From contig MSJI02000780.1 of assembly GCA_001931905.2 (NCBI GenBank), positions 1 to 64,000 of the forward strand: a stretch of 64,000 nt of DNA, written 5' to 3'. Below the pieces are notes generated by a model. The model did not search any database, was not told the origin of the DNA, and was given only the letters and a program-made list of their open reading frames with translations. Within the stretch, counting starts at the first letter, position 1. Each line of letters begins with the position of its first letter. The stretch is from Cladosporium sp. IMV 00045. Lineage: Eukaryota; Ascomycota; Dothideomycetes; Cladosporiales; Cladosporiaceae. Positions 1 to 46,549 of this stretch are shown here, piece after piece. A program made the translations under genes and the position numbers.

Positions 1-360
1 GAGGACTTCCAGGAGCTCATGCAGGGCTACGGTGACCACAACAACCCCATGGGTGTGCACGGTGGCGGCCACTGGCTCGGTGGTGGCCCCTCCCAGCTCG
101 AGGACTTCCACTCCAGCCCCAACGACCCCATCTTCTTCATCCACCACGGCATGATCGACCGTGTCTGGACCATCTGGCAGAACCTTGACATCAACGGCCG
201 CCAGAACATCATCAGCGGCACCTCCACCCTCGCCAACGACCCGCCCAGCGACCCCATGCAGCTCTCCGACATGATCCCCTTCGGCTTCGTCGCCGACGAC
301 CAGACCTTCGGCGACCTCATGGACACCTTCGCCGGCCCCTACTGCTACCGCTACGAGTAA
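1..360 (+). CDS. Tyrosinase, C-terminal fragment (cut by left edge)
   Basis: The reading frame is open from base 1 and stops at 358-360 (119 residues seen), so the gene begins outside the window. The fragment carries the copper-B half of a type-3 copper site. It has a GGGHW-type segment and then a DPIFFIHHGMIDRVW-like block, whose His-His and following Asp match the second copper-binding motif of fungal tyrosinases. Enzymes of this family oxidise monophenols and diphenols to quinones for melanin or secondary metabolites. The C-terminus ends soon after the copper-B domain (CYRYE), without the long C-terminal lid of many fungal tyrosinases, so this resembles the short secreted type. Codon use is strongly C-ending, suggesting good expression. 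The signal peptide and copper-A half cannot be judged. Confidence 0.9.
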   Translation, partial: EDFQELMQGYGDHNNPMGVHGGGHWLGGGPSQLEDFHSSPNDPIFFIHHGMIDRVWTIWQNLDINGRQNIISGTSTLANDPPSDPMQLSDMIPFGFVADDQTFGDLMDTFAGPYCYRYE

Positions 361-1546
361 ACTACGCTCAAGGCGTAGCGTAGCGAAACGACAAAAGCAA
401 CCCAACAAAAATCCATTCTTTTCGTATTTCTTGCATTGCGTAACGGCACATCTCGCCCATTGCATTGCATTTTCTTTTCTTTCTCTTCTCATATCCATCA
501 AAAGGCCCCGACCTGCAAATCCAGGCTCGCCGCTGTTTACGAATAGAGCATTCATACCATTTTCCTTTTATTTCTCCCGGCTATCTACATCAAATCAGAA
601 TGTTACGGCAAAGGCGAGCATTGTCATCCGGCCTACTTGTGTCTATAGAGCATAGAATATGATGGTTGAGACACAATTAATCATAATGACCAAGTTCACT
701 CATGACTTCTAGTTGCTTTCTCTGCTGCTCGTCTCATAGTGATATTTCCCAGACTTGACTTTCACACACACATCAGGTGTTCATCTCCGTAGACCTGTTT
801 ATGCTCGCCTAACAACAGCAGCAACAATAGCATTGCGCGGCCCTCAAAACGCAAGGCTCCGTTAACAATCCCAGCAGGACACAAAACCTGGTCAGTGCAA
901 GCTGTCGGTGAGCTGCGGGCTTCCGCCACCGACAGGCAGTGCTCAAGCGGCAATTGGAGGAGGATAGTAGCAATAATAATACAACAAATTCGGACATACG
1001 ACCCTTGTCCCTCCCGGGCTACAAGGGTCTCAGAGTCTAGAACATCACCACCTCTACCCAAGTCACCAACCCAAACGAAGCTCTTGCTAACCCGGAGGCC
1101 TTTCCTCATGACCTCTGCTAGTCTTTCATCTTTTCCCTGAATTACGCGCCGTTGGGGATGAGGTTTCTATTTACAGGAAGTGCTGTGAGACATTCGTTTC
1201 TACCGCGCCGTTTGTGTTTTGCGGAACGGTGAGACATTATTGCGGAAAGCGCGCCATACATTGCTGCTTTCTTGCGGAGAATGTTGGGAAACCTTTGGTT
1301 CTGACTCCGCTGCTAAGGCTGCTTGGTGACGACAAGCATTCTTTCCTTGGATCTTCGCGGAAACGCAACAATGACGCCGAAGGTTGCGTGTGGATTCGAT
1401 CTTAGTCTTGACATGTCCCTGGTCGGGACTTGATCTTCCAGCGCAGCTCGTGCGTGTCTGAGCTGCCAAGTATAGCATCAATCTCCGCCAGAAGTAGATC
1501 TTCAATCACACCCGCGACACCGGGAACGGTTTATGAAGGGCATGCT
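361..1546. other. Intergenic region, no gene recognised
   Basis: About 1.2 kb between the tyrosinase stop and the convergent lipase stop. It contains only short overlapping open frames without family resemblance. The first part should hold the tyrosinase 3' UTR. Nothing else is supported. Confidence 0.6.
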
Positions 1547-2813
1547 TCAGAGCCCTTCCTTGGCGAGCATATCTAAGTAAGAGCGTCAGCAAACAGGACC
1601 TCACGGAGGAACACCTTACAAAAGAGGACACACCTGTGATATGCAAATAGAAAGCAATAGCGTTGAAATTCCGCCTCTTGCCTCCAGTCAACTCCCAAAA
1701 ATACCATCTCAGACGGTTGGTCCAGTTGATCAAGTCCAGATGGCTGACGTTGTCCAGCGTGCCTTTGTACTCGCCCCATTTCGAGCTTTCGACGCTGACG
1801 AGGCCATCGTTGGGCCCTTCCGCTGCTTTCACGATGTTGTGTGATTTGCGGAAGACAGATGTCAGATGCGGATTGAGAGAGGCGCCGTAGCTGAAATAGC
1901 GGACGTCGGGATTATCTGGTGTTCGGGGGTTGAATGATTCCTTGAATGGCAGTGTCAGCACCGGGAAACGCATAGGCGAGAAAGCACTCAACCTACCTGC
2001 ATATATCGGTTGGTCAACTGCTCAAAGGCACCAGTCTCGAATCCGAATGCTTCCAGAGCTTTGTATAGTTTAGGAATGTTCGCGGTTCCGATTCTCTTGA
2101 AAAGGTAGTCCGCGAACGCTGAACCGTGATGAGGCGTTGCTATTGTCGTCAAGGATAGGACTTCCACGCCCTTTGGTTTGAGTTCGGATATCATGTATCG
2201 TGAGTCCAAACCACTGGGAAAAGTCAGCAAAGTTGATATAAGAATGCCCTGCGTTGATTTACCCCTAGAGGAATTGTCAGCGGTCACTTCTTGATTGATA
2301 CCAGTAAGTAAACTGACCATGCTATGTCTACAAAAAAACGTTAGCCTCATATCAAGTACCAAGAACCAAGTAAACGCACGCAATGATATTAACAGCCCTC
2401 CCCTGAGCACTCTGCGAGATCCTCTCACCGAGCTTCTCAGCCCTCTTCTCAATAGACCCGGAAGGCGGTACGGTAGCCGTGATGACTTCAACATTCTGCG
2501 CCGCCAACGCCTCCCGGATGCCTCGCCAGTATGCAATTCCCGGGAGGAGTTGCATGGGATCCAGATGGAATTCATCAAAGCCGAGCAAACCATGAGCGAG
2601 GATTATGGGATGTTTCGGTGCTTGGTATTCGTTTCGGATCACGGCGAATTCATCTTTGATCACGGTCGAGTCGAATTCTTTGAGGCGTGGGTCGTGGACG
2701 CGTTGGTGGTGGCGTGCTGGAGATGTGTGGAATTTTGAGATTTGCTGGAGTTGCGTTAAGATTCTGGTGTAGGCCCGCCGGCGAAGGACTGTCCTGTGAA
2801 AAGGGAGTCTCAT
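1547..2813 (-). CDS. Alpha/beta-hydrolase lipase (serine esterase) with micro-exons
   Basis: Predicted 331-residue lipase in six coding exons: 2380-2813, 2318-2327 (10 nt), 2263-2264 (2 nt), 1997-2213, 1634-1940 and 1547-1572. The exon sum is exactly 332 codons with stop. All introns are GT-AG and 49-61 nt, and most have a CTRAC-like branch site. An oxyanion-loop HGLLG motif lies at residues 74-78. The nucleophile elbow HSMGGLDSRY (Ser147) only forms if both tiny exons are used. A later ATPHHGS block and a C-terminal segment with His (near VSHLDLINW) complete a triacylglycerol-lipase-like fold. The N-terminus is Arg-rich with an FHTSPAR segment, resembling a mitochondrial presequence, so the protein may act in mitochondria (inference). 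The substrate is unknown. The family is sure; the exact splicing is inferred from frame and motif conservation. Confidence 0.85.
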
Positions 2814-3506
2814 GGTATGGCGAGATTGAATAGATGTTGAGCATTGGATGGGAGTCGCAGGATCGAATATGTTGACGACCCTGTATCTGGGCTAGCGCGC
2901 GTTGGTATGACAGCACTTCAACCTCATCATCAATCAGCGTGAGGCCTGTCGTCAAATATAACTACATGTATATTCATGATTGACACATAACGAGTTCCAC
3001 CCTCCTCAAACGAGACACTGTCCATGAGTATTCCTCCATTCAATGGAAGATGATATGTCTCGGAATAACCTTTTATCACGAGATCCTAATGACCTTTCTA
3101 GCACATGAGTTTTATACAATGCGCACTTGCGAACGTAATAAGATTGAGTATTCTGGAAGATATGAAGCCCTTGATATTTCGCAGACATTCATCTCTTGCA
3201 AAGAACCATCACGCAATGCGAGAATGCCTCAAGTTTCCGTACTGTCAACACGAAGCTACAAACTTGTGTCTTGCCCAAACCACTTGGCTCGAAGCACTCT
3301 TGCATGAAGAGGCGTATTGTTAGCTATGTATTGTATCACGCAGACTCTACGCAGGCGACCATCGTCCTTCAGAGTCGAGGGTCAGAAGTTGCTCGGTCCT
3401 CCCGCACGCAAGATGTATCGAATGTATACAATTGAAAAGGTATCAACGCTTGCTCCGAATATTTATCCTCGGCAGTCTCTCATCTCATTCTTGAAAAGCC
3501 TGCCAT
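2814..3506. other. Intergenic region, no gene recognised
   Basis: About 690 bases between the lipase start and the 3' end of the V-ATPase G gene on the same strand. It should hold the lipase promoter. Only short, unconvincing open frames occur. Confidence 0.6.
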
Positions 3507-4481
3507 TTACACCGTCGGCTGTTCAGTCCGGGTCGGCACAACCGGGTTGACGGTCACCACCGCCTTCAGAAGATCATCAACAACCTGTGTGTCCTGTCAG
3601 CGGAGAATCTTCATGGCTGTGTCGGTGTTTCGATGGTGTCCTTACCTTGGGACCGGTCTTGTCGCCAATCTGCTTGATCTCCTGCAGCTGCTTCTCGGTC
3701 GCCTTCTCTGCGTCCTCCTCGGCCTTCTTATTGCCGCTGGTTTGCTATTCATGGCGTTAGCCTCTGGCCATATCCGGACCATATATGTTGCCGCCTATGC
3801 AGGTGCGAGCAAGCAGTTCTGGCCAACCGTCTTTAGATTTATCCTTCCAAGAAAAACTCACCTCGCTCTCGAAAGACTTGAACTCAGTCTCTTTCTGCTG
3901 TCTGTAGTCCTCGATCTCTTTCTGCGCCTCCGACTTGGCGTCCTTCACTCTCTTGGTGCGGTCTATCTCGTGTCAGAATTTCGGCTCGTCGCTATGCCTT
4001 TCGGAAGCTGGTGTTTTCGAAGGATCGCTTGCTGGAATACGTACACTCTCTTGCTGTGACACCAGTTAGCGGTCGTGATCTTTTGGAGAGCGCTCGAGCT
4101 GCTCGGCAGGCGTCCCCTGCTTGGAATGCCATGTTGCATGGCTCCAAGCAAGATACACTCCCGGTTGCGTTGCTGTCTTACCTTTCTGAACGATCTTCTG
4201 CGCCTCGCGCTCTGCCTGTTACCGGCTATTAGCCCCATGCCCGGATGAAACCATGCTTCCGGCCAGCCCTTTGACAGTAGGTTGTTATATGTCATATTTC
4301 CGAGCTATTTCTCATGGGATATAATGGCGCATGCGATCGTAGTATATCGGGATATTGGGATATGTGGAAGGCCTGGGTTCAACGTACATCGAGCAGTGTC
4401 TGGATGCCGGCGGAGTTCTGTGCTGCCTGTATGGTATTTTAGCAGGAGTATCTCTGAGCTTGCATGATCTAGCCATACCAT
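3507..4481 (-). CDS. vma10: V-type proton ATPase subunit G
   Basis: Peripheral-stalk subunit G of the vacuolar proton pump, holding V1 to V0 together with subunit E. The gene is split into seven coding exons: 4479-4481 (start codon only), 4388-4426, 4182-4215, 4045-4053 (9 nt), 3862-3962, 3646-3744 and 3507-3584. They sum to 121 codons with stop (120 residues), the normal length of the family. Introns are 61-128 nt and mostly have CTAAC or CTGAC branch sites. The product starts with a QNSAGIQTLLD block, followed by the family-typical AEREAQKIVQKAREYRTKRV segment and a long charged coiled coil (KDAKSEAQKEIEDYR). Because the first coding exon is only ATG and one exon is 9 nt, automated annotation would probably miss the N-terminus. 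It is head to head with pet117, sharing a 268-base upstream region. Confidence 0.9.
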
Positions 4482-4749
4482 TTTGTCAAGTAATTTGTGA
4501 ATGTGATGTGTATTGAAGGCCCGATGTCAAACCCGCGACCGTGTATCTAGATCACCAGCTGGAGCTGTTGCACCGCCGCCGCGACTGCCACAGGCGGCCC
4601 AGCCAGCCAACCGAGCTCTCCCATGTCATCGGCGCCGGCGCAGGCGGACTTTGAGGAAGGTTTAACGATTGCGACTCTTTTACTTTGACGAAACAATTGA
4701 TTATCCACCTCACAGCATCAGATACAACAAATAGTCTGTTCACGTCAAG
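4482..4749. promoter_or_regulatory. Shared divergent upstream region of vma10 and pet117
   Basis: The 268 bases between the two opposed start codons must contain both promoters and 5' leaders. I see no motif I would name. The arrangement is inferred from the two gene starts. Confidence 0.5.
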
Positions 4750-5043
4750 ATGTCAACAGCAGCAAAGACCACCCTCGCGACCACGGTCCTGGGCACAATC
4801 GGCATTGTCTACTTCGTTCATCAGCAACAGGTCGCCGACAAAGCCGTACGTTCTCATGCCTTTTACCATGCAGAATGAGGGCATTTATTAACGAAAAACC
4901 TATAGGCCATGCACCAAGGTGTCATCCGCGATATGGAGCAGCAGCGCATTAAGCGCGAACGCCAGGTCGATTTCGAAATGCAGCGCCAGCTTGAAGAGGA
5001 GTACCGCAAAGTCCAGAATGTGTCGGACAGTACGGATAAATGA
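4750..5043 (+). CDS. pet117: Pet117-like cytochrome c oxidase assembly factor
   Basis: A 77-residue protein in two exons (4750-4845 and 4906-5043) separated by a 60-nt GT-AG intron with a TTAAC branch-like site. The N-terminal half contains a single hydrophobic segment (VLGTIGIVYFVHQQQ), followed by a charged helix with the family-typical block MHQGVIRDMEQQRIKRERQ. Pet117 is a small inner-mitochondrial-membrane protein that helps assemble complex IV, acting with Cox15 in heme A synthesis. Length, single membrane segment and the RDMEQQR region all agree with the family. The splice junction lies immediately before the conserved AMHQG segment. The start codon is the only upstream ATG in frame. 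Confidence 0.9.
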
Positions 5044-5543
5044 GGCATTGAAGGACGATGAAGTTACACAGCATATCCTTGCCACTGGAGAGAACATCTG
5101 GAGGAGTCGTCACGACCGCCTGTGGGCTACATAACAATTCGGCAGACCAGCGAAGAGCGGCGATGCCGCGAGCAAGCGCAGGACGCTCGATCACACCAAG
5201 AACAGAGCATTTCTGTGGCACCGCGAACAGGTTGGATACGTCTCTGTGCTTGTGGAATGCGTTAGCAGACTAGACCTTAAGAGCATCCGAAACCCATAAC
5301 CAGAGTGACACATGGGAGACGAAAGGCCAGACGAGAAGAGATCTGGCGCACCTATGCGTCGAAAGGTTCAAAAGGCGATACATCGAGCTGTGCGAAGACG
5401 GTCCAGAACGCCCATGACCATACAAATTATACATTAGAAGAATCTACACTCTGCGAATGCATATATCTTTCGCATGATAATCAAAGCAACCATAATCGCG
5501 AGCTCAATTCATAACTAATCACAAGCCTTCAATCCCCATCTCC
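5044..5543. other. Intergenic region between convergent genes
   Basis: About 500 bases that should hold the 3' UTRs of pet117 and the DUF2237 gene. No gene or repeat is recognised. Confidence 0.6.
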
Positions 5544-6109
5544 CTACTCCTTATCAACGGCAAACTGCTTCAACTCATCCAGCTCCACCTTCCCCAACGC
5601 CTTCTCATTCGTAGCATTTAGAAAATCTTCGGCACAATCTTCGCGCCCTGCGGGTGGTTCTTATGCGCATCGAACGCCTCCCTCCACCTGTGCAGCCCAA
5701 AAACGTCAGCTTCACCTTCCTCAAAACACCCAAACAACTAAAAGCTCGCGAAAACTCACCTGCTAACGCATAGACACCACTTACAACCCCCCTGCATGCC
5801 CGGGATGGGTCTGAGGTCGTTGCCCTGCTTGGCGCTGAAGTCGAGGAACTCGTCCGTGACTTCCGCCGCGACGCTGTGGTTGCCGTAGTCCGCGGCGGGG
5901 ACTTCGCAGTAGCCGTTGCGGAGGAAACCGGTCATGGGTTGTGTGGAGTGCAAGGCGAGGGGCTTCTTGAAGACGTTGAGGGATTTCGACATGCGGGCGG
6001 CGGTGGTGGCGTGGGAGTGGAGGGGTTCTTGGTTGTTGTTCTGGTGGTGGGAGGCGAATGTGAGGGTTAGGATGCTGAGGAGGAGGGTAAGGAGGTGGGT
6101 GGTGTGCAT
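5544..6109 (-). CDS. DUF2237-family protein, apparent 1-base frameshift near the 3' end
   Basis: Exon 1 is 5760-6109; a 73-nt intron (5688-5759) follows; exon 2 starts at 5687. The core (LALHSTQPMTGF, then GYCEVP, DYGNHSVAAEVTDEFLDF and a GCKWCLC motif) is characteristic of the small DUF2237 family shared with bacteria, whose function is unknown. As written, exon 2 hits a TAA at 5618-5620 (139 residues). The typical family ending (LNATNEKAL and so on) continues in the neighbouring frame to a stop at 5544-5546, so one base appears to be missing near 5620. The first Met gives a signal-peptide-like leader (MHTTHLLTLLLSILTLTFA). An internal Met at MSKSLNVF would give a cytosolic form closer to bacterial lengths. 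The start is therefore uncertain, while the family is clear. Confidence 0.8.
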
Positions 6110-6586
6110 AAAGCGAGGTTTGGTTAGGGTGTTGGGATGGAAGAGAGGACCTTGATGATGCTTCAATTAATAAGGTACATGCACATAGCTTTTGCGTTCC
6201 TTTAGAGCTCATCATCGTTACATGTACATGTGTGCTTGTGCTTCTTCGATTCGGCGGACCCATGAGATCATCATCGAGATCGGTTGTGGGGTAAAAGATG
6301 CCTTGCATCAACAACGACGATCTGTTATTACTGCATCGAAAAAGAAATCTACATTTCATCAACTCGATGATAATTCAACCAAAAAGATCATGATGCTGGG
6401 TGAAACCGACGGCACAGCTGGTGAGTTACATATATTAGACCTTTGTGGCGACATGAAGTCATCGAAACCAGACGATCTCCACACCAAGATCAAATTGACT
6501 GGGAAATCCCGACTCGTGAGAAACTAAGGTGCTCATGAACCCGTGATGCTCAAGACTTCGTTCCGCATCACCATTAAGAACGGCGC
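6110..6586. other. Intergenic region, no gene recognised
   Basis: About 480 bases upstream of the DUF2237 gene and downstream of the hydrolase gene. The only frame of note (6192-6527, + strand) has no recognisable family. Confidence 0.55.
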
Positions 6587-7388
6587 TCAGACAACTTCCC
6601 CAGCCGCCCTACGGATGACCTTCGCGCATTCGCCTGGCATGCTCAGCATCGGACAATGAGAACTTTTGAGAGCTACAACCTCCACAGCCTCAGGGCCGCC
6701 CTTCCTGCCCTCTCGCGTACGGCAAGCATCGATCATCCTCTGCTGATCCGCAGGACCCCAAGCGTTGTCTTCGGTGCAGAGAACAAACGTGACAGGGAAC
6801 TCAGCCCAGCCCTCGTGCTGCGAGGGATCGGTGAAAGCATCCGCTGCAGTGGGAACTAGCCCAGTGACAGCCTTCGCGGCCTCGTCGGGCGAGAGGTCGT
6901 TGTAGAAGGTAGGGATTGGGGTTTTGCAGGTTACGAGGTCGTTCTGTTTGATGCGTGTCAGTAGATCGTGGGTACAAGAACGGAAATGGCAGACTGACTT
7001 CGATGTGAGCATACTCCGGCTTCTCAAACTGGACGCCCGCCAGGGAGGATCCCCTTTCCACTATGAAAGAGGATATGTAGACTGCTCTCGGAATCTTGGC
7101 CTTCTGATCAGGAATCAAGGTCGCGAGTGCATCCGAGCCTGGGATTCCGCCGTAGGAATGGAACACAGGAACCACGGAGGTGGCGCCTTTGTTGATAGCG
7201 TCGACGAGGGCCTGTTTGATGACTGCCGTATCTTCACTGAAAGCCGATGGAGGAGGGGTGAAGCTGGATGAAGGTAGTCTTGGAGCGGATGTTGTGTAGC
7301 CAGCTGCCTGGAGGATCTGGGTGAGAGGGTCCCAGACAGAGGGTAGGTGTTGGGCTCCGTGGACGAGGACGATGTGAGTTTTTGCCAT
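6587..7388 (-). CDS. Alpha/beta hydrolase (AB hydrolase 6-like)
   Basis: A 248-residue protein from exons 6999-7388 and 6587-6943, with a 55-nt intron (donor GTCAGT, acceptor AAACAG). It opens with IVLVHGAQH (oxyanion-loop HG) and has a short PVFHSYGG elbow, where Ser in HSYGG is the likely nucleophile. Late in the sequence is an SSHCPMLSMP segment carrying the probable catalytic His. The layout matches small soluble esterase or hydroxynitrile-lyase-like hydrolases that are common in fungi and often detoxify small esters. The substrate cannot be deduced. It is divergent from lipin across a 1.1 kb region. Confidence 0.85.
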
Positions 7389-8494
7389 CTTGGGGATTGG
7401 TATTGCTCCTTGTAAGTTCTAGTGTTCTGGTTGAGATCTGTTCCAGAAGAGGTAGTCTCGCTGGGCACTTGATCGCTTTATCAATGCCTCAATCCGGGTG
7501 GGTCTTTCTACGTGAAGGATCACCAGTGCTGCAAGAGCTCGCTTTGATTAGTGAAAGCTACTCAGCCGTATGATGGTGTGTTTTTCAGCCGGTCTGTATA
7601 TATACGTGATCGGCAGTGATACGGTGTGGTATGATGGGCCTAGTGAGCCTTTGCTGACAAACGCAGCAGCAACCCCAATGGATTTGCAGCTCCAGCCATG
7701 CACTCGCTAGGCGTTTGGTGAGCTATGGAATTACAGCGTATTGAACAGCTTTGAGCAAAGCATGTAACGAACAAGTGTCAAGTATTGCAATACACTCAAG
7801 CGACAGAGCCTCGATATTTGAGGGATGACTTGTATGGGAGACGTTAATTGGTTAAGACCTTAATCAATATGGGGGAAATCGGCAAGGCGGCTATTTACGG
7901 AAACACAGAGACAGACCACTAAATCTGGGGTACAGGATGCGGGATTGAGGAAGCGGCAGCGTGAACCGTAAGGCTGTATGGGTGGGTGGCTGCCTGCACA
8001 TTTACAGTGAAGGACTCCTGCGGTTGAGCACAACAAGCTTCGTCGATTGCTTTCTTCTCCTCACTTGCTTGCCCATTCCTTCATACTGCCTGCTTCTTGA
8101 AGAATATCACAATACACTTGTCCTCTTCGTTTACTGCTTTGGTTTCGCATAGCGATCCTCTTTCCTGCTGCTGCCTGCAACCGAGCCTCGCCTGCATGTG
8201 CTTTCTTGCGGCCGTATGACGTTTCTGCCTCTGCTGACCCGGACCACATCCACCATCCACCACTATCCGTGACCATCCTCAGACCACTTCGCAGCGAAAA
8301 AGGACTCTTACTCACAAAACACCCGTGACGGGCTCAGCGGCTGAGAAAAAGCTCTGCATGACCTGAACATTCGCTTGCCCTCTGCTTGACAAGGCACATA
8401 CACATCCGCGCCGTCCTCTCCTTGTCGGCGTCTGGTTACAGCAAACGCTCTTCTCACCTCATTAATATAGATAGATCCGGCAGAGCGACCAAAA
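7389..8494. promoter_or_regulatory. Divergent upstream region of hydrolase and lipin genes
   Basis: About 1.1 kb separating two divergent start codons. A TATA-like run (TATATATA) occurs near 7597-7605. The part closest to lipin is pyrimidine-rich, as expected of a fungal 5' leader. No small gene is supported. Confidence 0.45.
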
Positions 8495-11010
8495 ATGAAT
8501 TACGTCCGCGGGCTCGGTTCGAGCGTCTCCACCGCCTGGAACAGCATCAACCCTGCCACCCTGAGCGGCGCCATCGATGTTATCGTGGTCGAACAGGAGG
8601 ATGGCTCTCTCGCCTGCTCTCCCTTCCACATCCGATTCGGCAAATTCAGCCTCCTTCGCCCGTCTGAGAAAAAGGTGGAGTTCACAATCAATGGAGAGAG
8701 CAAGACTTTCCTATGAAGCTTGGAGAGGGAGGGGAGGCCTTCTTCGTGTTCGAGACGAAAGAGAGTATACCGGAAGCCTTGCAAACCAGTCCGCTCGTCA
8801 GTCCTGCAGCGAGCCCAGAGCTGCGACCGAGTGTGCCCAGTACACCAGCTTTGCAAGAGCCAGACCCCTTTGCGCTCGAGAGTGAAGGCAATTCGGCAGA
8901 GCAGGAAGATGGCGCAAGCACTGTTGGTAACGCTGGAGGAAGGAGGCACGCTAGGAGCACCACAGAAGGCATCACAATACCGACCCTTTCAAAAGCTAGG
9001 AGCGAAGGTGACGGGATGACGCCTTTGCCTGATACCCTGGACCAGACGAAACGCCTCCCTCTTGCGGGCGACATTGCAGCTTTGGGCCAAGCGCGCCTTA
9101 CTCCTAGACTCGAACGCACAGCTACAGACGGCGACCTGGCGTCTGCCAAAGCAGCCATCATAGAATCATTGGATCACTCCGAGCCTCTACAACCACCTGT
9201 GATACGGGAGGCAGCTTCGAGTCAAACTGCTCGCACAGACCGTTCGGCTAGCCCTCCACCATGGTCAAAGGAAGAGGCAGTAACGCGAGCGATCAATCTG
9301 TCGAAGAAGCTGTGGACTTCCAATATTGCTACCCAAGTCACCGACTCGGGAGACCTGATGCTCGATATGACGGGTTACAAAAGCGATGCTGGCGAGGCGC
9401 TTCAAGCGGAGGGTATCGCGCGTAAGCTCTTGTCAGAGGAGCTGGAAGGCCCGTACGATATCGGAGCTCTGATCGGAGCGGATGAGAAGGGCAACCTGTG
9501 GATTTACAGCAGCGAGGAGGCAAAGCATGCCGCAAGTAAGAAGGCCGCTGCCGACGGATTAGGCGCGTTGCAAACAGGATTTCAGTCCACAGACGCGCTG
9601 TCTGATCCGGGATACCACAGCGATGATGCCCGTAGCGATTCCACTGCTGACTATGCGGGAGCACACTTCAGGCGAGACAGCGACAGCGCGGTTGGAATGA
9701 CTTCTCAACCATCATCCCCCACTCCTGCCACCGCCGCTGGTGACCCGAACCGCAATTATGCGAAGACCCTTCGCTTGACCTCTGAGCAACTGAAAGCGAT
9801 GAACTTGAAGTCTGGTGGCAACCAGATGTCCTTCTCTGTCAACCGTGCTACGTGCAGTGCTACTTTGTGGTACTGGAAGCACGATGTGCCAATCGTCATC
9901 TCAGACATCGACGGCACAATCACAAAGAGCGATGTCCTGGGCCACGTCCTCACCACCATCGGCCGCGATTGGACACACTTGGGCGTGGCCAAGCTCTACA
10001 CTGAGATCCATGCCAATGGTTACAATTTCCTCTACCTGACCTCCCGCAGTGTAGGCCAAGCGGATACGACCCGAGGGTACATTGACGGCGTCGTTCAAGA
10101 TGGCTACAGACTGCCCAAAGGGCCCATCATCCTGAGCCCTGATCGCACAATTGCTGCTCTTCGTCGCGAGGTGTACCTCCGCAAACCCGAGATCTTCAAG
10201 ATGGCCTGTTTGCGTGACATCATGGCTCTGTTCGCTGGCCATGGCGGAGCCAACGACACTTCAGCATCGGCTGCGGACGGCCTGTCTCATCTCCCCGTCG
10301 GCATGGCTCCAGGGCGCGGCAAGGGTGGAAGTCCATTCTACGCCGGATTCGGCAACCGTCTCACAGATGCCCTGAGCTACCGCAGCGTCAACATTCCTTC
10401 GACAAGAATATTCACCATCAACTCCAACTCCGAAGTCAGCCTCGACCTACTCAGCCTGAACAAATACAAAACCGGATACGCCAGCATGCGCGAAATCGTC
10501 GACCACTACTTCCCTCCCATCGGCCTGCGCATGCTGGTTGAAGGCGGCGCAGAGGACTTCACGGATTTCAACTACTGGCGCGACAAGCCCTTGGACGTCG
10601 TAGATTTTACCGACTCAGAAAGCGACTCGGGCGACATGGACGACGACCTCCCCGCGGGCATGAATTCTCTCGACCTCGACAGGACGCGCACCAACGCCGA
10701 GAGCATCATGTCCGGCGGCAGCCAGATCCTCAGCGAAGACGAGGCGGGCAGCGAAATGCTCGATTCGTACCTCAGCGAGGCCAGGCCGAGTATGGATGAA
10801 TCTGTCTATGAGAGTATTGAGGAGGAAGACGAGGATCTCACGAGCTCCATGCTCGAAGACGACGATGACGAGTATGAAGGCGACGAGGAGGAGGAGGAGG
10901 AGGACGCGCAGACGCGGCAAGCACCGGCGGAGCGCGTCACTCCGCCCCGCGACACGAGCGCTGAGGAAGCGCAGGGCGGGCGCACGCCGAGGAGGAGTTT
11001 TGCTCGGTAG
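8495..11010 (+). CDS. pah1: Lipin-type phosphatidate phosphatase, apparent 1-base frameshift
   Basis: Magnesium-dependent phosphatidate phosphatase (Pah1/Smp2/Ned1/lipin) turning phosphatidate into diacylglycerol at the ER/nuclear membrane. It controls triacylglycerol synthesis and nuclear membrane growth. The N-terminal lipin domain (starting MNYVRGLGSSVSTAWNSINP) runs from 8495 in one frame. The continuation (MKLGEGGEAFFVFET and onward) lies in another frame from about 8710. The two are contiguous in all lipins, so one base seems lost at the TTTCC stretch 8706-8711. Restored length is about 838 residues. The HAD-like catalytic motif DIDGT is at about residue 471, followed by the conserved TSRSVGQADTTRGYI region. 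The C-terminal tail is very acidic (Asp/Glu runs), and Ser/Thr-Pro-rich linkers are typical of CDK-regulated lipins. There are no introns. Confidence 0.93.
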
Positions 11011-11691
11011 GCGGTTGGAGGTTTGATGTTTCATTGTTGTGATGCATAAGACGAATTAGCGAGCGGTTTTGATTCAACGGGTCTCATGGAGTTTTTTTAC
11101 TTTATTTTTGTACAGCTGCTGTGTGTTGTGTTTTGGTGAGAGGGTTGCATGGTCACAGGGGCAGGTTTGGGTGAACCTTTTCCGTTTCTTGAGCGGGGCT
11201 TTCAATGAATGTTGGGCGTGGTGTGCCCGGAGATTACAGAAGGAAGGAAGGAAGGAGGTGTTGTATAACAGACTACGTCCCGTTTTCGAGGCTGCATTCC
11301 TCGTGCGAATGATTTATTCAACATCTACGTAAATTGAAGATGAGGTTCTCTCGCATGGCTATCGCCTGTTTGTTCGTTTCATTCTCCGTTCCGTTTTCTC
11401 TCACTCACTACTATCATCTACTGGTCTACATGTAAGCAGTAATGATATTGATGGCTTCCATTTGCTACGAAGCTCATCGTGAATCCACAGCCCGTGGGTG
11501 CAAGCTCCGTTTTTGGAAATCGAATCACCCCTCCGTAACCGGCAAACGCCCCTCCGCTTTTGCGGTTTGTTGCAAACGGTGACTTCAGCTCTTGAGGAAA
11601 ACGAGTGACAAACATCCTTCGATCATATATATCACGACAATACCACAAGACCCACACAAGAACCCCTCCAAAATCATCAGAGTCATCAAAG
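11011..11691. other. Intergenic region with a short GGAA microsatellite
   Basis: Lipin 3' UTR and upstream region of the small Cys-rich gene. A GAAG/GGAA repeat lies at about 11238-11256. No additional gene is supported. Confidence 0.55.
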
Positions 11692-11966
11692 ATGTGCATG
11701 AAATCCGCCTGCAGCGTTTGCGGTTCGTCCCTCTCCCTTTTCCCCACGCAATCTACCATCACGGTGCAACACCTTGAAACCAAGCAGAGCGAACATCTTC
11801 TGACTTGATTTTCTGCATTTCTATAGCTAAGCAATCCTGGATCGGCTGTGGAAGCCACGTGCCCATGGTCATGGACAACATCCCCCAGGCCGACTGGTGC
11901 CAGTGCGCTCCTAAGGTTACGGTCGGTGAGAAGGAGTACCCGCCGAAGGCTGGGACTGGGAAGTAG
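11692..11966 (+). CDS. Small conserved Cys-rich fungal protein
   Basis: A 56-residue protein from exons 11692-11722 and 11827-11966. The 104-nt intron starts GTTCGT, has a CTGAC branch site and ends CTATAG. Cysteines at residues 2, 7, 10, 18, 35 and 37 form C-x(4)-C-x(2)-C and C-x-C pairs, which suggests zinc or another metal binding. The pattern (N-terminal Met-Cys, then SWIGCG, a VPMVMD segment, ADWCQC, and a YPP end) matches a short protein I have seen across ascomycetes annotated only as hypothetical. No function is known. It is too short and too split for a plain ORF scan. It is convergent with the viperin gene (260 bases between stops). Confidence 0.75.
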
Positions 11967-12225
11967 AGGACTGGCTTTTGGGTCGCGATTCTAGGTGAGT
12001 TGGAACGGTAGAGTTTCCTTGGGAGGGGGTTTAGATGGTGGGTGCTGACTACTTTGTCAAATGTAGGTATTCTGAGTAATGTTACATGACTATGAACGCT
12101 GTGCTTGAGCCTGTCCAAGAACTTCCATCTGAACACTTTCTTTGAGCCACTTCCACTTGACATCCAGAGCTTTGCTTCACCCAGATTCTGTCACTCTGCA
12201 AGAAGTGCGATGACTCTTCCCTCTC

Positions 12226-13260
12226 TCACCACTCGAGCTCCTTGGCCGTCGCAGATCCACACCCATCTCCCTCCTGCTCGTCCTTGCTCCATGCATACAA
12301 CCCACCTCTCTGCATGAAAGCTTCCTGGTCGAACTTCACTTCCTCAAGCGCCTTGGCCACGCCAACCTCCAGAATCGACCTAGACTGCCTCTCCTTCCCC
12401 TGTCCCTTGTCCAGGAAGCACAAGTACTCGTCCAGAATAAGATAGCTTGAAGCCATGAGATCGTTCGGCTCCGGCACAAACGCCTCCAAATGCTTATGCT
12501 TCTCACAAAAAGCCTCAAACTGCTCTCCCGAAATCAGCAAATCCCTCGCATCGCGCTTGCGTTTGTCGGACACAGCATCCACCGCTTGCGCATCATTCTC
12601 GTCTTCGACAAACAGCACTTGAAAACACTTCCAGCGCTGTGGCGCCAACTCCGCCACCGTCGCCGCCATGTCTTCCTGCCAATTGAGCTTGCTAACGACC
12701 GTGTTGAGCTTGAACTTAATCCCCATCTCACGACACCAGTCGCGAATGCGGAACAGCTGCTTGACGTTCTCGCCCGTGCCGCGCCCGATGGCCTCGTTGG
12801 TGCGCTCGTCGAAACTGTCGCACGACACGCCCATGACGTCCACGAACCGCCCGTACTTTTCCAGCCATTTCTGGCTCACTTTGGTGCCGTTGGTGATGAT
12901 GGAGACGCTCTCGAGGCGCAGCTCCTGCTTGCAGAACTGACACAGCCAGCCCAGCTTGTCCGGGTAGAGGAAGGGCTCGCCGCCGGCGAAGTTGATCTTG
13001 CGCATGCCGGCGGCTTTGAGCAGGCGGAGGCCGCGCTCCATGTCGTCTGAGGAGGCGACGAAGGAGGTTTTTTCGGTGTGGAAGCAGAATTTGCACGTTT
13101 TGTTGCATTTGCGTGTGAAGTGGTAGTTGACGGAGATGGGTTTGGTGCGGTTGATGTGGCGGCGGAGGCGGTAGAGGAGGTAGGTGGTTAGGGTGAGGAA
13201 GAGGAGGGTGGCGATTGATTTGCCGGTGGTGGAGGTGATGAGGGATTTTGTGAGTGCCAT
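12226..13260 (-). CDS. Viperin (RSAD2-like radical SAM enzyme, ddhCTP synthase family)
   Basis: Intronless, 344 residues from the Met at 13258-13260; the frame is open further upstream, but that part is low-complexity and unlike viperins. Residues about 15-31 form a hydrophobic anchor followed by basic residues, as in animal viperin, which sits on the ER and lipid droplets. Then comes the conserved NYHFTR segment with the 4Fe-4S radical SAM motif CNKTCKFC (C52, C56, C59), the typical FCFHTEKTSF context, GGEP (93-96), SCDSFDE and a PESN-like PEPN segment. The C-terminus ends in Trp, as in viperins, where the last Trp contacts the Fe-S assembly machinery. Characterised viperins convert CTP (or UTP in some microbial forms) to the 3'-deoxy-3',4'-didehydro analogue, a chain terminator. 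It is head to head with a nucleotide kinase. An antiviral role in this fungus is inference. Confidence 0.93.
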   Translation of the reverse strand: MALTKSLITSTTGKSIATLLFLTLTTYLLYRLRRHINRTKPISVNYHFTRKCNKTCKFCFHTEKTSFVASSDDMERGLRLLKAAGMRKINFAGGEPFLYPDKLGWLCQFCKQELRLESVSIITNGTKVSQKWLEKYGRFVDVMGVSCDSFDERTNEAIGRGTGENVKQLFRIRDWCREMGIKFKLNTVVSKLNWQEDMAATVAELAPQRWKCFQVLFVEDENDAQAVDAVSDKRKRDARDLLISGEQFEAFCEKHKHLEAFVPEPNDLMASSYLILDEYLCFLDKGQGKERQSRSILEVGVAKALEEVKFDQEAFMQRGGLYAWSKDEQEGDGCGSATAKELEW

Positions 13261-13823
13261 TTTGGTTTTGAGTTGGAGTTCTTGTTGGATGTTCGAATGC
13301 TTTGTTTGTTGGTTGGGAGAAGACTGATCTTTGCAGGAATGGACCAAACTCTTATACTCTGGAGAGGAAGAAGAGGTTGCCTTGTTGTCTTGAATGGTGT
13401 TTGTTGCAATCTCACTCGTCCAAAGACATTGTTGCTTCATCTCGGCCCAGCAAGCCTGGGGACGGAAATAGGCGATTGTTCCACAAACATCGCTCTGCGG
13501 GCACTCCCACTGAGGGCTGAGACGATTGAGGTTTGTCTTTTGATTGAAGACGATGTCTCATTCTAGACTTCACGTACCTAGGCGTTCTGCAGAAGAACAA
13601 ATATGATGGCTGACAGACAGTATATCAGACATGCGTCTAGAGATTCACTGCAGGCATGAAACATTGCAGTGTCTCCGGTTCAACTCTGGAACGAAGAGTG
13701 AAACTCACGTGTCGGTCTATCTATCATGGCCATTCACATACGTAGACCATGGCTTTAAAAGCCAACAAACACACAATAGTCTCCTACATTCCATTTGCCA
13801 CAGACAAACCAACACCCAACACC
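13261..13823. promoter_or_regulatory. Bidirectional upstream region of viperin and kinase genes
   Basis: 563 bases lie between the opposed start codons of viperin and the UMP-CMP-kinase-like gene, so both promoters must be here. Near the kinase side, 13750-13762 is a short inverted repeat (GGCTTT, A, AAAGCC) that includes a TATA-like TTTAAAA. This arrangement would allow co-induction. No specific factor site is claimed. Confidence 0.5.
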
Positions 13824-14514
13824 ATGGCTTCCAACACGCAAACTCCACCACAACCCTCCGCCTCCAACAAGTCCCCAACCTCACCCTCTCTAATCTACGT
13901 CCTCGGCGCCCCCGACGCAGGCAAAGGCACCCTATGCACCCTCCTCGCCAAAACCTACAAGAACATCCACCACATCTCCCTAGGCGACCACCTCCGCAGC
14001 CTTCTCTCCCCTGCAACTCTCCTCACAGCCTCTCCCGAAACATTCGGAGGCCTAGACTACGCCGACTTCAGCGCACGCATGCAGCGCCGCGAACTCCTCC
14101 CAGCCACCAACATCGTTGCCATCACTCGCAAAGCCATCGAGAATCTCGTCGAAAGCACCCCCAGCGATAAAAAGAAACGAAACAGATCATCCTCATCGAC
14201 GGCTTCCCACGCTCTCCGGAATCCGCCCAGCTAGCCGACATCACGCTCGGCAGACCAGACAAGGTTCTTTTCTTCGACTGTCCGCGCGAAATCGCGCAGG
14301 AGCGTTTCCTCAAGCGAAGACGCTCTGTTGATGATGGTCTGAGGTTTTCAAGACCAGGTGTGATGAGTTTGAGAGGCTGAATGGTGAGATTTTGGGCTTG
14401 TACGGAGACGCTGTTGTTAGGGTTGGGACGGAGAAGGGCGTGGAGGAGACTTGGGAGACGTTGAGGGGGAATGTTGGGGGGAGTTTTGAGGGCATGGAGT
14501 TGGTGGAGGTGTAA
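13824..14514 (+). CDS. UMP-CMP/adenylate kinase family protein, two apparent 1-base frameshifts
   Basis: Nucleoside-monophosphate kinase. The N-terminus has a P-loop LGAPDAGKGTLC; a Cys two residues after GKGT is typical of UMP-CMP kinases. It is followed by ISLGDHLRSLL (NMP-binding start). The middle part (ILIDGFPRSPES, then VLFFDCP) continues in a different frame from about 14183. The end (EVFKTRCDEFERLN to the stop at 14512-14514) lies in a third frame from about 14341. Restoring one base at the A-rich stretch 14169-14182 and one at 14336-14341 gives a 230-residue, full-length kinase. An upstream ATG at 13749 is in frame but adds unlikely sequence. The neighbouring viperin uses CTP, so a CMP/UMP kinase would plausibly feed it (inference). 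The breaks could be assembly errors or real inactivation. Confidence 0.8.
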
Positions 14515-33920: not shown

Positions 33921-35660
33921 TCAGACGTTATTCCCACCTTTTCCCTCAACGTGGCTCGCACCAATCTTCTCAGAGAACATCTGTTGACCACTGTGCGCCG
34001 AGTTCCTCCTACTAGCCACATTCGAGCCTCTCCTGCCTTGACTTTCAGCAGCAGCTCGTTCAAGAGCATCACGATGCGGGCCCGGCTTCGCGAAGAGCAC
34101 ATCGATCTCTTCGAGCGTGCGGCCCGTTGTCTCGGGGCAATAGTACCAAACGTAGGCGGCAGCTAGGAAACAGCAGACCAGAGGCCAGATGAAGATCTTC
34201 GGTCCAACAGCCGCGATGCCAGTGCCGCCGCCGAAGACCATCACCCAGGTCGAGAACCATTCACCTGCTGCACCGAGACTGCCGGCGACGTGGCGATATC
34301 TCAAGGGAGCAATTTCGGGGCCTGAAATTTTCGGCAGTCAGCAAGAGAAATACGGTGCTTCATTGGTTCATGCCAACTTACCATAGATCCAACAAGTGCC
34401 TAACCAGCCGAAGGCAAACACGACGTTGTAAAGAATGATGAAGGCGACGGCCGACCAGTTCGTGGCAGTGGTAGGATTTGCCACGGTTGTGAGGCCGACA
34501 TAGATGATCATGCAGACACCGCAACCAAGAGCGCACCAGAACATCATGGCACGGCGACCAAGCTTTTCGATAAACCAGATGGGCGGGTATGACGCGATTG
34601 CGAAGATGGTGTTCATGACGCCCGCAAGGATACCGGATAGCAATTGCGAGTAACCCAGGTTCGTGAAGATTTGCGTCGAGAAGTAGACAAGCATGTTGAT
34701 ACCCTGAAATCTCGTCAGCAACTGCATGAGGGTGTAGATTCGTGTAACTCACCAAAAATTGCTGAGCCCAGAGAATGAGGAACGAAGTACGTAGACGACG
34801 ACCAAACTGGAGCTCAGAGTTGTCCCAGAAAAGAAGCCAGAAGTTGAACGAAGACGAATCGCTCTCTTCTTCTTTTAGAGATGCGAGGACATCCTCCCTT
34901 TGCTGTTGGACTGTCTCATGCTGCACAGGAAGCGAGTAAAGTCTTGCCAGTACTCTGTCTGCTTCATCATATCGGCCACGCGCGTAATACCACCTAGGCG
35001 TATCAGGTAGAAAACAAAGCAAGGTAGTAGAGAAGATTGCAAAGCAACTCTGCATTGCCAGAGGGATACGCCAGAGCCAAGGGTTTGCTTCGAGGCCTTG
35101 AACGAAGCCGAGATCGATCCAGTAGGCGAGGGCAACGCCAGAAATCAGAAGGGCGAGCTGGTAAGAGACCTCTGGTCCGCGCTCGCCGGCTTCGAGGGAC
35201 ATCTCAGCCATGTATGTTGGCACAGCGCTGGCGATGCAGCCAATGCCAGCACCGGTCACGATACGGCCGACGAGAATGTGAGGGACCGAATAAGCCGAAG
35301 CTTGGAGAACAGCTCCGATGCAAATCAAGAGGTTGCCGAGCAGGATAGTTCCTTTGCGACCCAATTGCATGGCAAAGAATGATGTGCAGAGAGACATGAC
35401 ACCAGCCGCGAGATTGTAAGAAGATGCGATCAGCGGAATGGTGAAGGCTCCTTCGGGGTTTCCAATGGCATCTCGGAACTGCGTGGTCTCCTGGAATCCA
35501 CCAAGCACACCGGCGTCGTATCCGTAGAGCATGACTAGAGGACCGTGTCAGCATCGTTTTTTTCGTTTGATCAAATTGTGGTATGTTTACATGCAGCACC
35601 GCAAGCAGCGCTCATAGTCTTGTAGAGGGCCTTGCCCTCAAGATTCTTGAGCCCAAACAT
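33921..35660 (-). CDS. MFS sugar transporter
   Basis: 524 residues in four exons: 35591-35660, 34753-35534, 34382-34703 and 33921-34321. Introns are 49-60 nt with GT-AG ends. It has the 12-helix sugar-porter architecture. Visible are GYDAGVLGGF in helix 1, GRKGTILLGN after helix 2, GRIVTGAGIGCIAS, the LPDTPRWYYARGR motif before the central loop, GINMLVYFST in helix 7, EKLGRRAMM, and a C-terminal PETTGRTLEEID motif. The cytosolic tail is Ser/Arg/Gly-rich. Such carriers import hexoses, pentoses, quinate or galacturonate, and the substrate is not deducible. It is convergent with the ICL/PEPM gene. Confidence 0.93.
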
Positions 35661-44217: not shown

Positions 44218-46549
44218 CTATATCCTCCCATCTTCCATCCCAGCAATCGTCGGATGGGTAGCAAGATTTTCCCAGAAGTCAACTTCAAAGTCCCAAGGCT
44301 CAAAGCTGATGTCTGGGTTCCAATTGTTGTAAATATCCATGGATGTTGCGCCTTGCAAATTGGTAAGATCAGTCTGCGGTGGAGGCGCCAGAGTTAGAGA
44401 CGAGTCTAAGATTGACTGAATAGTCCTTGTTGCCCGAGTGAAAAGCTCAAAGCTTGGCTCCCAGCGAGATATGACTGCGCCTGCCTTTACTTGTGCTACC
44501 AGAATGCAGAGGTTCTGGATCATCTGTGATTTGCCTCGTGTGGGCGCGCCAGTCCCGCTTCGACGGAGGAGGGCGAGTGATACCACGCCAGCAGCAGGGA
44601 GACCAAAGTGAGCAACCTGAAAAGTAAGTATGAACTCGACCAAGCTATTTCGTTGAAAAAAAAAGCCGTACCTTCCACAGCCAACAGGTGCCAGAGTTGA
44701 CGAGTTTGTTTCTCAACAGTATGACTTCCACAACCAAGTTCAGCATTTGCCCAGCAGTGTCTAGAAGATCTTCGTCGGGATCTGGGTTCTTCTGAAGAGT
44801 CACCAGTCCAAGAAGGAAGTGCGTGTGCAGGTATTCCAAGCGCTGGTTAACCAAAAAGTCTTTCGCGAACGGACTTCCTGTAGACTCCGCTAGGCTTGTT
44901 GTTAAACGGAAATGTGCTGGCATATCGAGCCATAGCTGCTCCAAATCTTGCCTGGCCCTCTCAACCATCTCTGCTTGATCGCTTGCATGACGTTTTCGGA
45001 AGATCTCTAGGCTGTGCTCCTTGACCACTGCGAACCTTGCGCTGCAGCGTGTATCGGCGACGTAGTTGATCATTTCTGGCTGGTAGGAATTGCCATTCAT
45101 ATGTAAGACTGGTGCCTGGAAGTTGCAAAAGCCAAGCAGTATACGTGGTGGTCTTCCCATGAAAATCGACAGAGTTTTGTCAGCCCAGTATATGCGCGCG
45201 AAGATTGCCTTCCTGAGTTCCAAGACGAAGTCAGGGACATTCGGCGCCTGTTGGTCGATTTTCTCGTGATAGCCCAAGGTCACGAGAGATGTTGCAAGGT
45301 CTCCCATGCTACGCCAAGTATGAAAGCCTATGATTGTCGGACCCAAGTCAGCTGCTTTCCTCGGTAGTCTACCACATGATGGAGGTGCGATCATCGTTAT
45401 TCTGACTTACTTTGGTCTCCGTGTATTCGAGAGTGCATCTGAAATTGCTCGTACTGCAGAACGATTTGCAGATCATTCAAACAATCGATCGAGAGGCATA
45501 TCTCAAGACAACAATCACCAATGTATGTCAGGCTTTTAGCCAGCTTTCTTCGACGTTCTTCCGATACGTAGAGGGATGCGAAAATTTCCACATCTGATGC
45601 AGCCTTCGCACCAGCCGCGAAGAATATCCCCAAGGTTTCCCATCGTATTTCACTACCAGTCATCTGCGAAATGTATTCGTCGAAAGTCGATTTACTGTTG
45701 AATGTGATCGGCTTATATGTGTTCTTCGACAGTGACCTCGCTCTGCGAGAGAACGCTTGAGTTTGCTCAAACGATCCCGGCTCTAGAGACGATGTACTTT
45801 GCCGCCATGGGCAATGAAGCATGGCGTCCACACATCCGCGTACAAACGGCTCGGCAAGAGCTAGGTTTGCTCCCGTGTCCAGCCAAGCGAGAACGAGGTT
45901 GGACAGCTTAGTGATATCAAATCCACTGAGTCTACCTAGAACGTGCGTGGCTCGAAAGTGAATCCCTTGGTCCTCAAACATATCTGCTGGTAAGCTGTTG
46001 TGAAAGTCATGTGGGGACTGAGCTCTAGATTCCAGTGGAGTCTCGCTCATGGACTGTACTTCGTTGAAGATAGCAAAGCCACTTGACGATCCCAAAAAGC
46101 CAGGGTTTGGATAGCGGTGCGATGGAGTATGATCTTCCTGAGAATGTCGTCTTGGGCTAGAAGCGCTGAACCTACTGCTGCTGGTGGATGAGTGTCAGGT
46201 ACAAGTCTGTGATGGAGATACAACAAGAAATTCGCCCTATCTGGACATAGATCCAGAGGCTCCGGGCTGTACTACGTCTGATAGATCCTCCAAGCGATTG
46301 TGCTCTTCGCTCGTTCCTGTGGGACACTTACACCGGCAACTCTGAATGATCCTCTTTCTCATGATGTGCCACATGCTGCAGCCTTCGTTTCTTGAAAGGC
46401 GCATCTCTGTACACACAGTCGTTCCTTTGGCCTCGTTGGAGGCATCGGTGGCAAACAGGCTGCTCGTGTCCGCATGCAACCTTCGAAGTTCTGCAAGGAT
46501 TACAAGCAGGTCGTTTCTGCGTGCTAGGAGTGCCTGTAGCAGTCTCCAT
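44218..46549 (-). CDS. Zn2Cys6 transcription factor with fungal_trans-type middle domain
   Basis: 688 residues from exons 46332-46549, 45411-46180, 44672-45351 and 44218-44616, with introns of 151, 59 and 55 nt; all phases agree. The zinc cluster has Cys at 16, 19, 26, 33, 36 and 45 (CX2CX6CX6CX2CX8C), followed by a basic FKKRR patch. The large middle region (LGPTIIGFHTWRSMGDL through FARIYWADKTLSIFMGRPPRIL) is typical of the fungal-specific transcription factor domain. The start is the Met just before the cluster. The first intron is relatively long, and an alternative with a 20-nt exon is possible. It is divergent from the MFS carrier/pectinase pair, so a role in their control is conceivable (inference). 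Confidence 0.87.

Follow-up and report, generated by a model that had tools for sequence, protein, structure and literature searches.

The stretch of DNA analyzed here, referred to as the window, is 64,000 nucleotides long and represents positions 1 to 64,000 of contig MSJI02000780.1 of the fungus Cladosporium sp. IMV 00045. It carries a viperin gene and, on the opposite strand, the apparent remains of a nucleoside-monophosphate (NMP) kinase gene, and the two face each other across a divergent intergenic region (Table 1). The contig that carries this pair is labeled C777 below, and C739, C658 and similar labels denote other contigs of the same genome, which was searched for related genes (49.9 Mb in 954 contigs).

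Table 1. Features of the viperin and kinase genes, in window positions (ORF, open reading frame; SAM, S-adenosylmethionine)
Feature	Position	Strand	Remark
Viperin coding sequence	12226..13260	-	344 amino acids (aa), one exon; longest ORF reaches ATG 13440 (12226-13440)
C-terminal Trp344 codon	12229..12231	-	translation
CX3CX2C [4Fe-4S]/SAM motif, C52/C56/C59	13084..13107	-	translation
Possible membrane anchor, residues 7-25	13186..13242	-	most hydrophobic N-terminal stretch
Divergent intergenic region	13261..13823		563 bases start to start; bounded by both start codons
Kinase remnant, first frame: P-loop and NMP-binding part	13824..14231	+	PF00406 29.9 bits; homology stops ~14183
Kinase remnant, second frame: GFPRSPES base-site motif and LID region	14171..14377	+	TIGR01359 28.7 bits; homology ~14180-14338
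Kinase remnant, third frame: C-terminal part	14335..14514	+	stop codon 14512-14514; homology to P0127

The Viperin Gene and Its Probably Broken Neighbor

By homology far beyond chance, the window gene encodes a true viperin. Its translation matches the radical-SAM domain PF04055 at 70.9 bits and the NCBIfam model NF038283 at 254.6 bits (cut-off 180), and it reaches 358 bits with TIGR04278, short of that model's own cut-off of 450. Equivalents of the three motif cysteines are invariant across 12 aligned viperins, and the C-terminal Trp is present in 11 of them. A preliminary description of this DNA had reported a viperin with this motif and a terminal Trp, starting 563 bases from a kinase on the opposite strand, and these points hold; the membrane anchor that it had also assigned is suggested at most, as the best 19-aa Kyte-Doolittle window, at residues 7-25, has a moderate hydropathy of 1.18. 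Translation probably starts at the internal ATG 13260, the longer ORF upstream being a leader, because the same Met is where the viperins P0001 (96% identical) and P0002 (81% identical) start. P0002, from Cladosporium fusiforme, is the closest viperin from a named species among the matches listed.

The kinase gene reads in three frames. From the ATG at 13824, which has a further in-frame ATG upstream of it at 13749 inside the intergenic region, homology runs in frame 0 to about 14183, in frame 2 to about 14338 and in frame 1 to 14511, with the frame changes located near 14170-14186 and near 14333-14344. The intact relative P0127 (255 aa) is 97.4% identical to the first piece over 116 aa and 96% identical to the second over 52 aa (98% over 53 aa for P0125), and it matches the third piece at 91% over 57 aa (in a second comparison, 14338-14511 against its residues 198-255, at 90%). 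The pieces match PF00406 and AAA_17, the third has no Pfam match on its own, and no thymidylate-kinase model matched any of them at E 0.001 in the Pfam scan. An intron was considered as the cause of the frame changes and rejected by eye, since it would be too short, with a poor donor and no plausible GT-AG fit.

It is probable from the sequence that this kinase copy is a recent pseudogene, because its close relatives are intact, and the module at C777 is then probably reduced to the viperin alone. The preliminary description was thus right about the kinase by descent, as it belongs to the adenylate-kinase/UMP-CMP-kinase fold, and wrong in taking it for an intact ORF; the working kinase-viperin module that it proposed is not supported for this copy, given the two frame changes. 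A local assembly error is the main alternative to a pseudogene and is possible, though we would put it well behind; it would leave the module intact here and is compatible with the other explanations discussed below. The three pieces remain 91-97% identical to P0127, as such an error would allow. The 14 other Pfam-supported ORFs of the window, together 17.2 kb, are nevertheless all open over their length, and the chance that two random shifts would both fall within the 691 bases of the kinase is about 0.0015, therefore a general error rate fails to explain the two changes. This sample is biased, since the tally covers 14 of 16 ORFs scanned, leaving out 6801-7388 and 44645-45394 (partial profile matches), and two of the 14 (34378-35532 and 59663-60628) match a partial profile and may contain introns or breaks. 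Nor was a second copy or allele of the kinase stretch found in the genome for comparison; neither window stretch searched, 8713-11010 or 12226-14514, has a near-identical second copy there.

A Second Viperin-Kinase Pair in the Same Genome

The genome search found only one other clear viperin, at C739:8752-9753, which shares 57% identity with the window protein in the region of residues 40-344. Two more matches, at 24% identity and E about 4e-4, represent different genes of the radical-SAM type. Beside it, at 7619-8407, lies an adenylate-kinase-type gene with one predicted intron and an intact ORF, and the two stand head to head on opposite strands with 344 bp between their starts. A genome search with PF00406 gave nine exon hits at six gene loci, two of which are the viperin neighbors at C739 and C777. 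As read off their translations, the other four appear to be a Ura6-like gene (C658), an Adk1-like gene apparently in two copies (C827 and C706), and an Adk2-like gene (C857). The C739 kinase (k739) and the window kinase belong to different subfamilies, here called family B and family A, respectively, and blastn-short detected no shared sequence between the 344-base and 563-base intergenic regions.

Several further features of the C739 locus were observed. The contig is 15.2 kb long, and the pair is surrounded there by ORFs of the hAT dimerisation, reverse transcriptase and Tc5/DDE_1 transposase types. About 30 A bases follow closely downstream of the kinase stop codon; retroposition of the kinase, considered from this poly(A) tract, was dropped as the gene has a predicted intron, and a search of 10 kb found no copy of the 8-15 bases that follow on the far side of the tract. 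The C739 viperin has Phe-Pro before its first Cys motif, whereas the other 11 of the 12 aligned viperins have His-Phe. At the same place the chains 9dfn and 9dfu of the Protein Data Bank differ, Phe versus His, in the aligned stretch shown, therefore the natural Phe-Pro variant may differ in activity.

Linkage in Other Fungi

Two protein searches were compared, one with the viperin (best 120 of 1,743 matches) and one with the kinase profile (best 120 of 2,757), and a viperin and a kinase were taken as linked when they were listed with a longest contig of identical size in bp. Seven pairs were found in this way (7 of the 120 listed viperins). In C. fusiforme, P0002 and P0135 have the consecutive locus tags Q7P37_004132 and Q7P37_004133, thus the two genes are adjacent; the other named pairs are P0093/P0166 (Vermiconidia calcicola), P0096/P0197 (Lecanosticta acicola) and P0064/P0235 (Nemania sp. 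FL0031), and three more lie on contigs of 3,767, 4,978 and 53,451 bp. We take these fungi to span Dothideomycetes and Xylariales. Near-misses in size, which served as a gauge of coincidence and were not counted as links, amount to 13 pairs within 1-20 bp, four of them within 1-3 bp, so that about 0.3-0.7 exact matches would be expected by chance.

All seven linked kinases fall in the 43-row family A and none in the other 77 listed rows. The latter include five short fragments resembling family A that were left out of it (P0174, P0175, P0184, P0195, and P0232; 147-177 aa, as a set 47-53% identical to P0121), and none of these has a viperin on a same-size contig among the matches listed. Eleven of the 43 family-A kinases carry a species name; four of the 11 have a listed viperin from the same species, in all four cases on a same-size contig. 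The second divergent pair in the genome and the seven same-size-contig pairs, one with consecutive tags, together support an association of viperin and kinase in fungi above chance, as far as sequence can tell, and the neighborhood check that the preliminary description had called for is positive as far as these comparisons reach. Apart from the linkage, two different viperins of Mycena vitilis (P0085 and P0089) are both listed with a contig of 164,258 bp and are probably paralogues on one contig.

Family, Base Site, and Fold of the Linked Kinases

The family-A kinases belong to the adenylate-kinase superfamily (PF00406) by their P-loop GxPGxGKG, their NMP-site and LID arginines, and their fold. 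Six of them fall well below the cut-off of the UMP-CMP-kinase-type model TIGR01359 (207.6 bits), with 75.3 (P0121), 72.1 (P0122), 70.2 (P0135), 72.4 (P0137), 109.3 (P0197), and 96.0 bits (P0235), and the separate Ura6-like gene at C658 scores 239.7 bits, above it. Likeness to dTMP kinases is limited to 20.8 bits with TIGR00041 (cut-off 83.25) on P0121 among six family-A relatives, and to PF02223 among the precomputed domains of one row in 43 (P0224). The structure predicted for one kinase, P0127 (mean predicted local distance difference test score 84.6), finds its best match in yeast uridylate kinase 1uky, which is also the best sequence match of the family (77 bits, P0121). The adenylate-kinase/UMP-CMP-kinase fold of the linked kinase is thus supported.

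The role of the base-site residue is known from adenylate and UMP/CMP kinases. In the column of this residue 1uky has Gln and all seven linked kinases have Ser or Thr; the catalytic Lys and Arg columns are retained; the motif Arg is also absent from P0137, and k739 of family B retains Gln. Family A further differs from 1uky in a shorter LID.

Comparison with Known Systems

Vertebrate RSAD2 neighbors CMPK2, a kinase of the thymidylate-kinase-type fold. The fungal pairs resemble this arrangement in that a viperin has a nucleotide-kinase partner, and they differ in that the partner has the PF00406 fold and does not qualify as a CMPK2; to speak of convergence with CMPK2 therefore rests on the fold of the latter. 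According to the parts of PMC11249213 consulted, viperin activity depends on CMPK2, a CMPK2-like kinase adjoins 15% of bacterial viperin genes, and eukaryotic viperins make derivatives of cytidine triphosphate (CTP) or uridine triphosphate (UTP). The specific product 3'-deoxy-3',4'-didehydro (ddh)-CTP named in the preliminary description was for this reason over-specified. The regulation it proposed, joint induction from one bidirectional promoter, was too specific as well.

Prokaryotic viperins with linked kinases (PADLOC pVip, PDLC02904/PDLC02905) offer the same likeness, and the window protein reaches 236.6 bits with PDLC02903, 224.2 bits with PDLC02904, and 174.3 bits with PDLC02905. Nine prokaryotic loci with a viperin were examined, some of which are truncated where a contig or record stops; no adenylate-kinase-type ORF was found among their 58 ORFs, 10 of which were scanned with Pfam. 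At one archaeal locus (L032) a kinase of the amino-acid-kinase fold (PF00696) has a 7-base overlap with the end of the viperin ORF; its best match is the archaeal UMP kinase TIGR02076 (115.6 bits, below the cut-off of 158). This pairing of a viperin with a UMP-kinase-like enzyme of another fold fits independent recruitment, as one example. At the same locus (L032:2248-4610) a single ORF of 559 aa fuses a type I restriction (T1RH-like_C) domain to the viperin, which comes second, and the overlapping kinase ORF lies after it. At a Heimdallarchaeal locus (L034:3243-3908 and 4016-4909) the viperin has an opposite-strand neighbor of CARF-like/winged-helix type (HFX_2341_N, CARF_Card1) and is itself followed by a 919-aa ORF; an ORF of like size after the viperin of L033 is helicase-like (AAA_11/AAA_12). 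Three scans of viral contigs, with the viperin alone, the viperin alignment A4, and the kinase alignment A3, found no relative.

The fungal viperins already described, TtRSAD2 of Thielavia terrestris and 6b4c of Trichoderma virens (PMC8124187, table), belong to the same enzyme family, and the window protein reaches 363 bits with 6b4c. A linked kinase is not mentioned in the consulted parts of PMC9642334 and PMC8124187, the word "kinase" is absent from the main text of PMC10732462, and "viperin" does not occur in PMC10197012. No published report of a fungal viperin-kinase pair was found in the literature searched, and one may be in print elsewhere.

What the Pairing May Do

On balance we favor, with moderate confidence, the reading that a fungal viperin and a dedicated NMP kinase, here surviving as remains, form a recurrent two-gene module in which the kinase feeds or tunes the substrate of viperin, and that the kinase has decayed at this locus. 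The module would be recurrent because another divergent pair occurs in this genome and the two genes share contigs in other fungi, and the supply role is suggested by the fold of the kinase, by its linkage, and by the analogy to CMPK2. From CTP and/or UTP the viperin would produce a chain terminator of the 3'-deoxy-3',4'-didehydro type, as is established for related fungal enzymes, and the linked kinase with its changed base site would phosphorylate pyrimidine NMPs to nucleoside diphosphates, thereby feeding or tuning the substrate pool. With its own kinase decayed, the intact window viperin may use housekeeping kinases or the intact C739 kinase.

A number of observations weigh against this reading. 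The kinases at C739 and C777 are of different subfamilies, therefore the two pairs need not have one origin, and the broken copy indicates that this strain, at least, can do without the kinase. Ser or Thr occupies the base-site column in 33 of the 43 family-A rows, linked or not, therefore the change does not set linked kinases apart. On the kinase tree the linked members are not clustered (8 changes, compared with a shuffled mean of 7.7), and seven of the 11 named kinases have no same-species viperin among the best 120 of 1,743. The closest intact kinase, P0127 (57,668 bp contig), has no listed viperin of the same size, and the closest viperin, P0001 (3,378 bp contig), no listed kinase; in Zymoseptoria tritici the viperin P0107 and the family-B kinase P0155 are on differently sized contigs. 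Gene orientation and distance were seen in this genome only.

With its changed base site the kinase could also act on ddh-nucleotides, and instead of supplying viperin it might handle the product of that enzyme, accepting ddh-nucleoside monophosphates from RNA turnover and returning them towards the triphosphate or shielding host pools. Base recognition may indeed differ from that of housekeeping kinases, given the Ser/Thr of all seven linked kinases and the catalytic columns kept; we hold this role unlikely, as the function of the base-site residue is carried over from other kinases, Ser/Thr is common in unlinked rows too, P0137 is without the motif Arg, and k739 keeps Gln. About equally improbable is a linkage that is positional only, in which a common promoter or joint movement keeps two old accessory genes side by side although they share no pathway. 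The mobile-element ORFs around the C739 pair and the decay of the C777 kinase beside an undecayed viperin would suit it, but two kinase subfamilies adjoin the two viperins of one genome, the linkage presumably spans Dothideomycetes and Xylariales, and nucleotide kinases partner or neighbor viperins in animals and bacteria too (PMC11249213, in part). For one fungal viperin a role in natural products has been put forward (PMC9642334, in part), and the pair could in principle make a diffusible antiviral or antifungal nucleoside instead of serving defense within the cell. This we regard as very improbable, since the larger ORFs scanned at 8.7-20.6 kb are Ned1/lipin-like, NmrA-like, GNAT, and weakly GT-like and do not look like a biosynthetic cluster.

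Elsewhere in the genome, several genes occur as pairs with equal or almost equal scores on different contigs (C735/C947, C597/C906, and C827/C706). For such paired genes beside single-copy window stretches, partial duplication, a hybrid, or uncollapsed haplotypes are candidate readings.

Significance for Fungal Viperins

A viperin-kinase module is known in vertebrates and bacteria, and the adenylate-kinase-fold partner would be the variant feature here. If the module is real, fungi share with animals the two-step logic of a nucleotide kinase and a viperin by means of an unrelated kinase; such convergence would reveal what the pathway needs, and it would provide a genetically tractable setting in which the purpose of fungal viperins could be studied. 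A simple prediction of substrate follows from the changed base site in the linked kinases. As a tentative extension, for which we claim rather little confidence, fungi may have repeatedly recruited viperin partners of the adenylate-kinase fold, family A and separately family B at C739, specialized for the ddh-nucleotide pathway. If true, then together with the CMPK2 type of vertebrates and bacteria and the PyrH type of L032, at least three unrelated kinase folds would have been independently drawn into one antiviral pathway.
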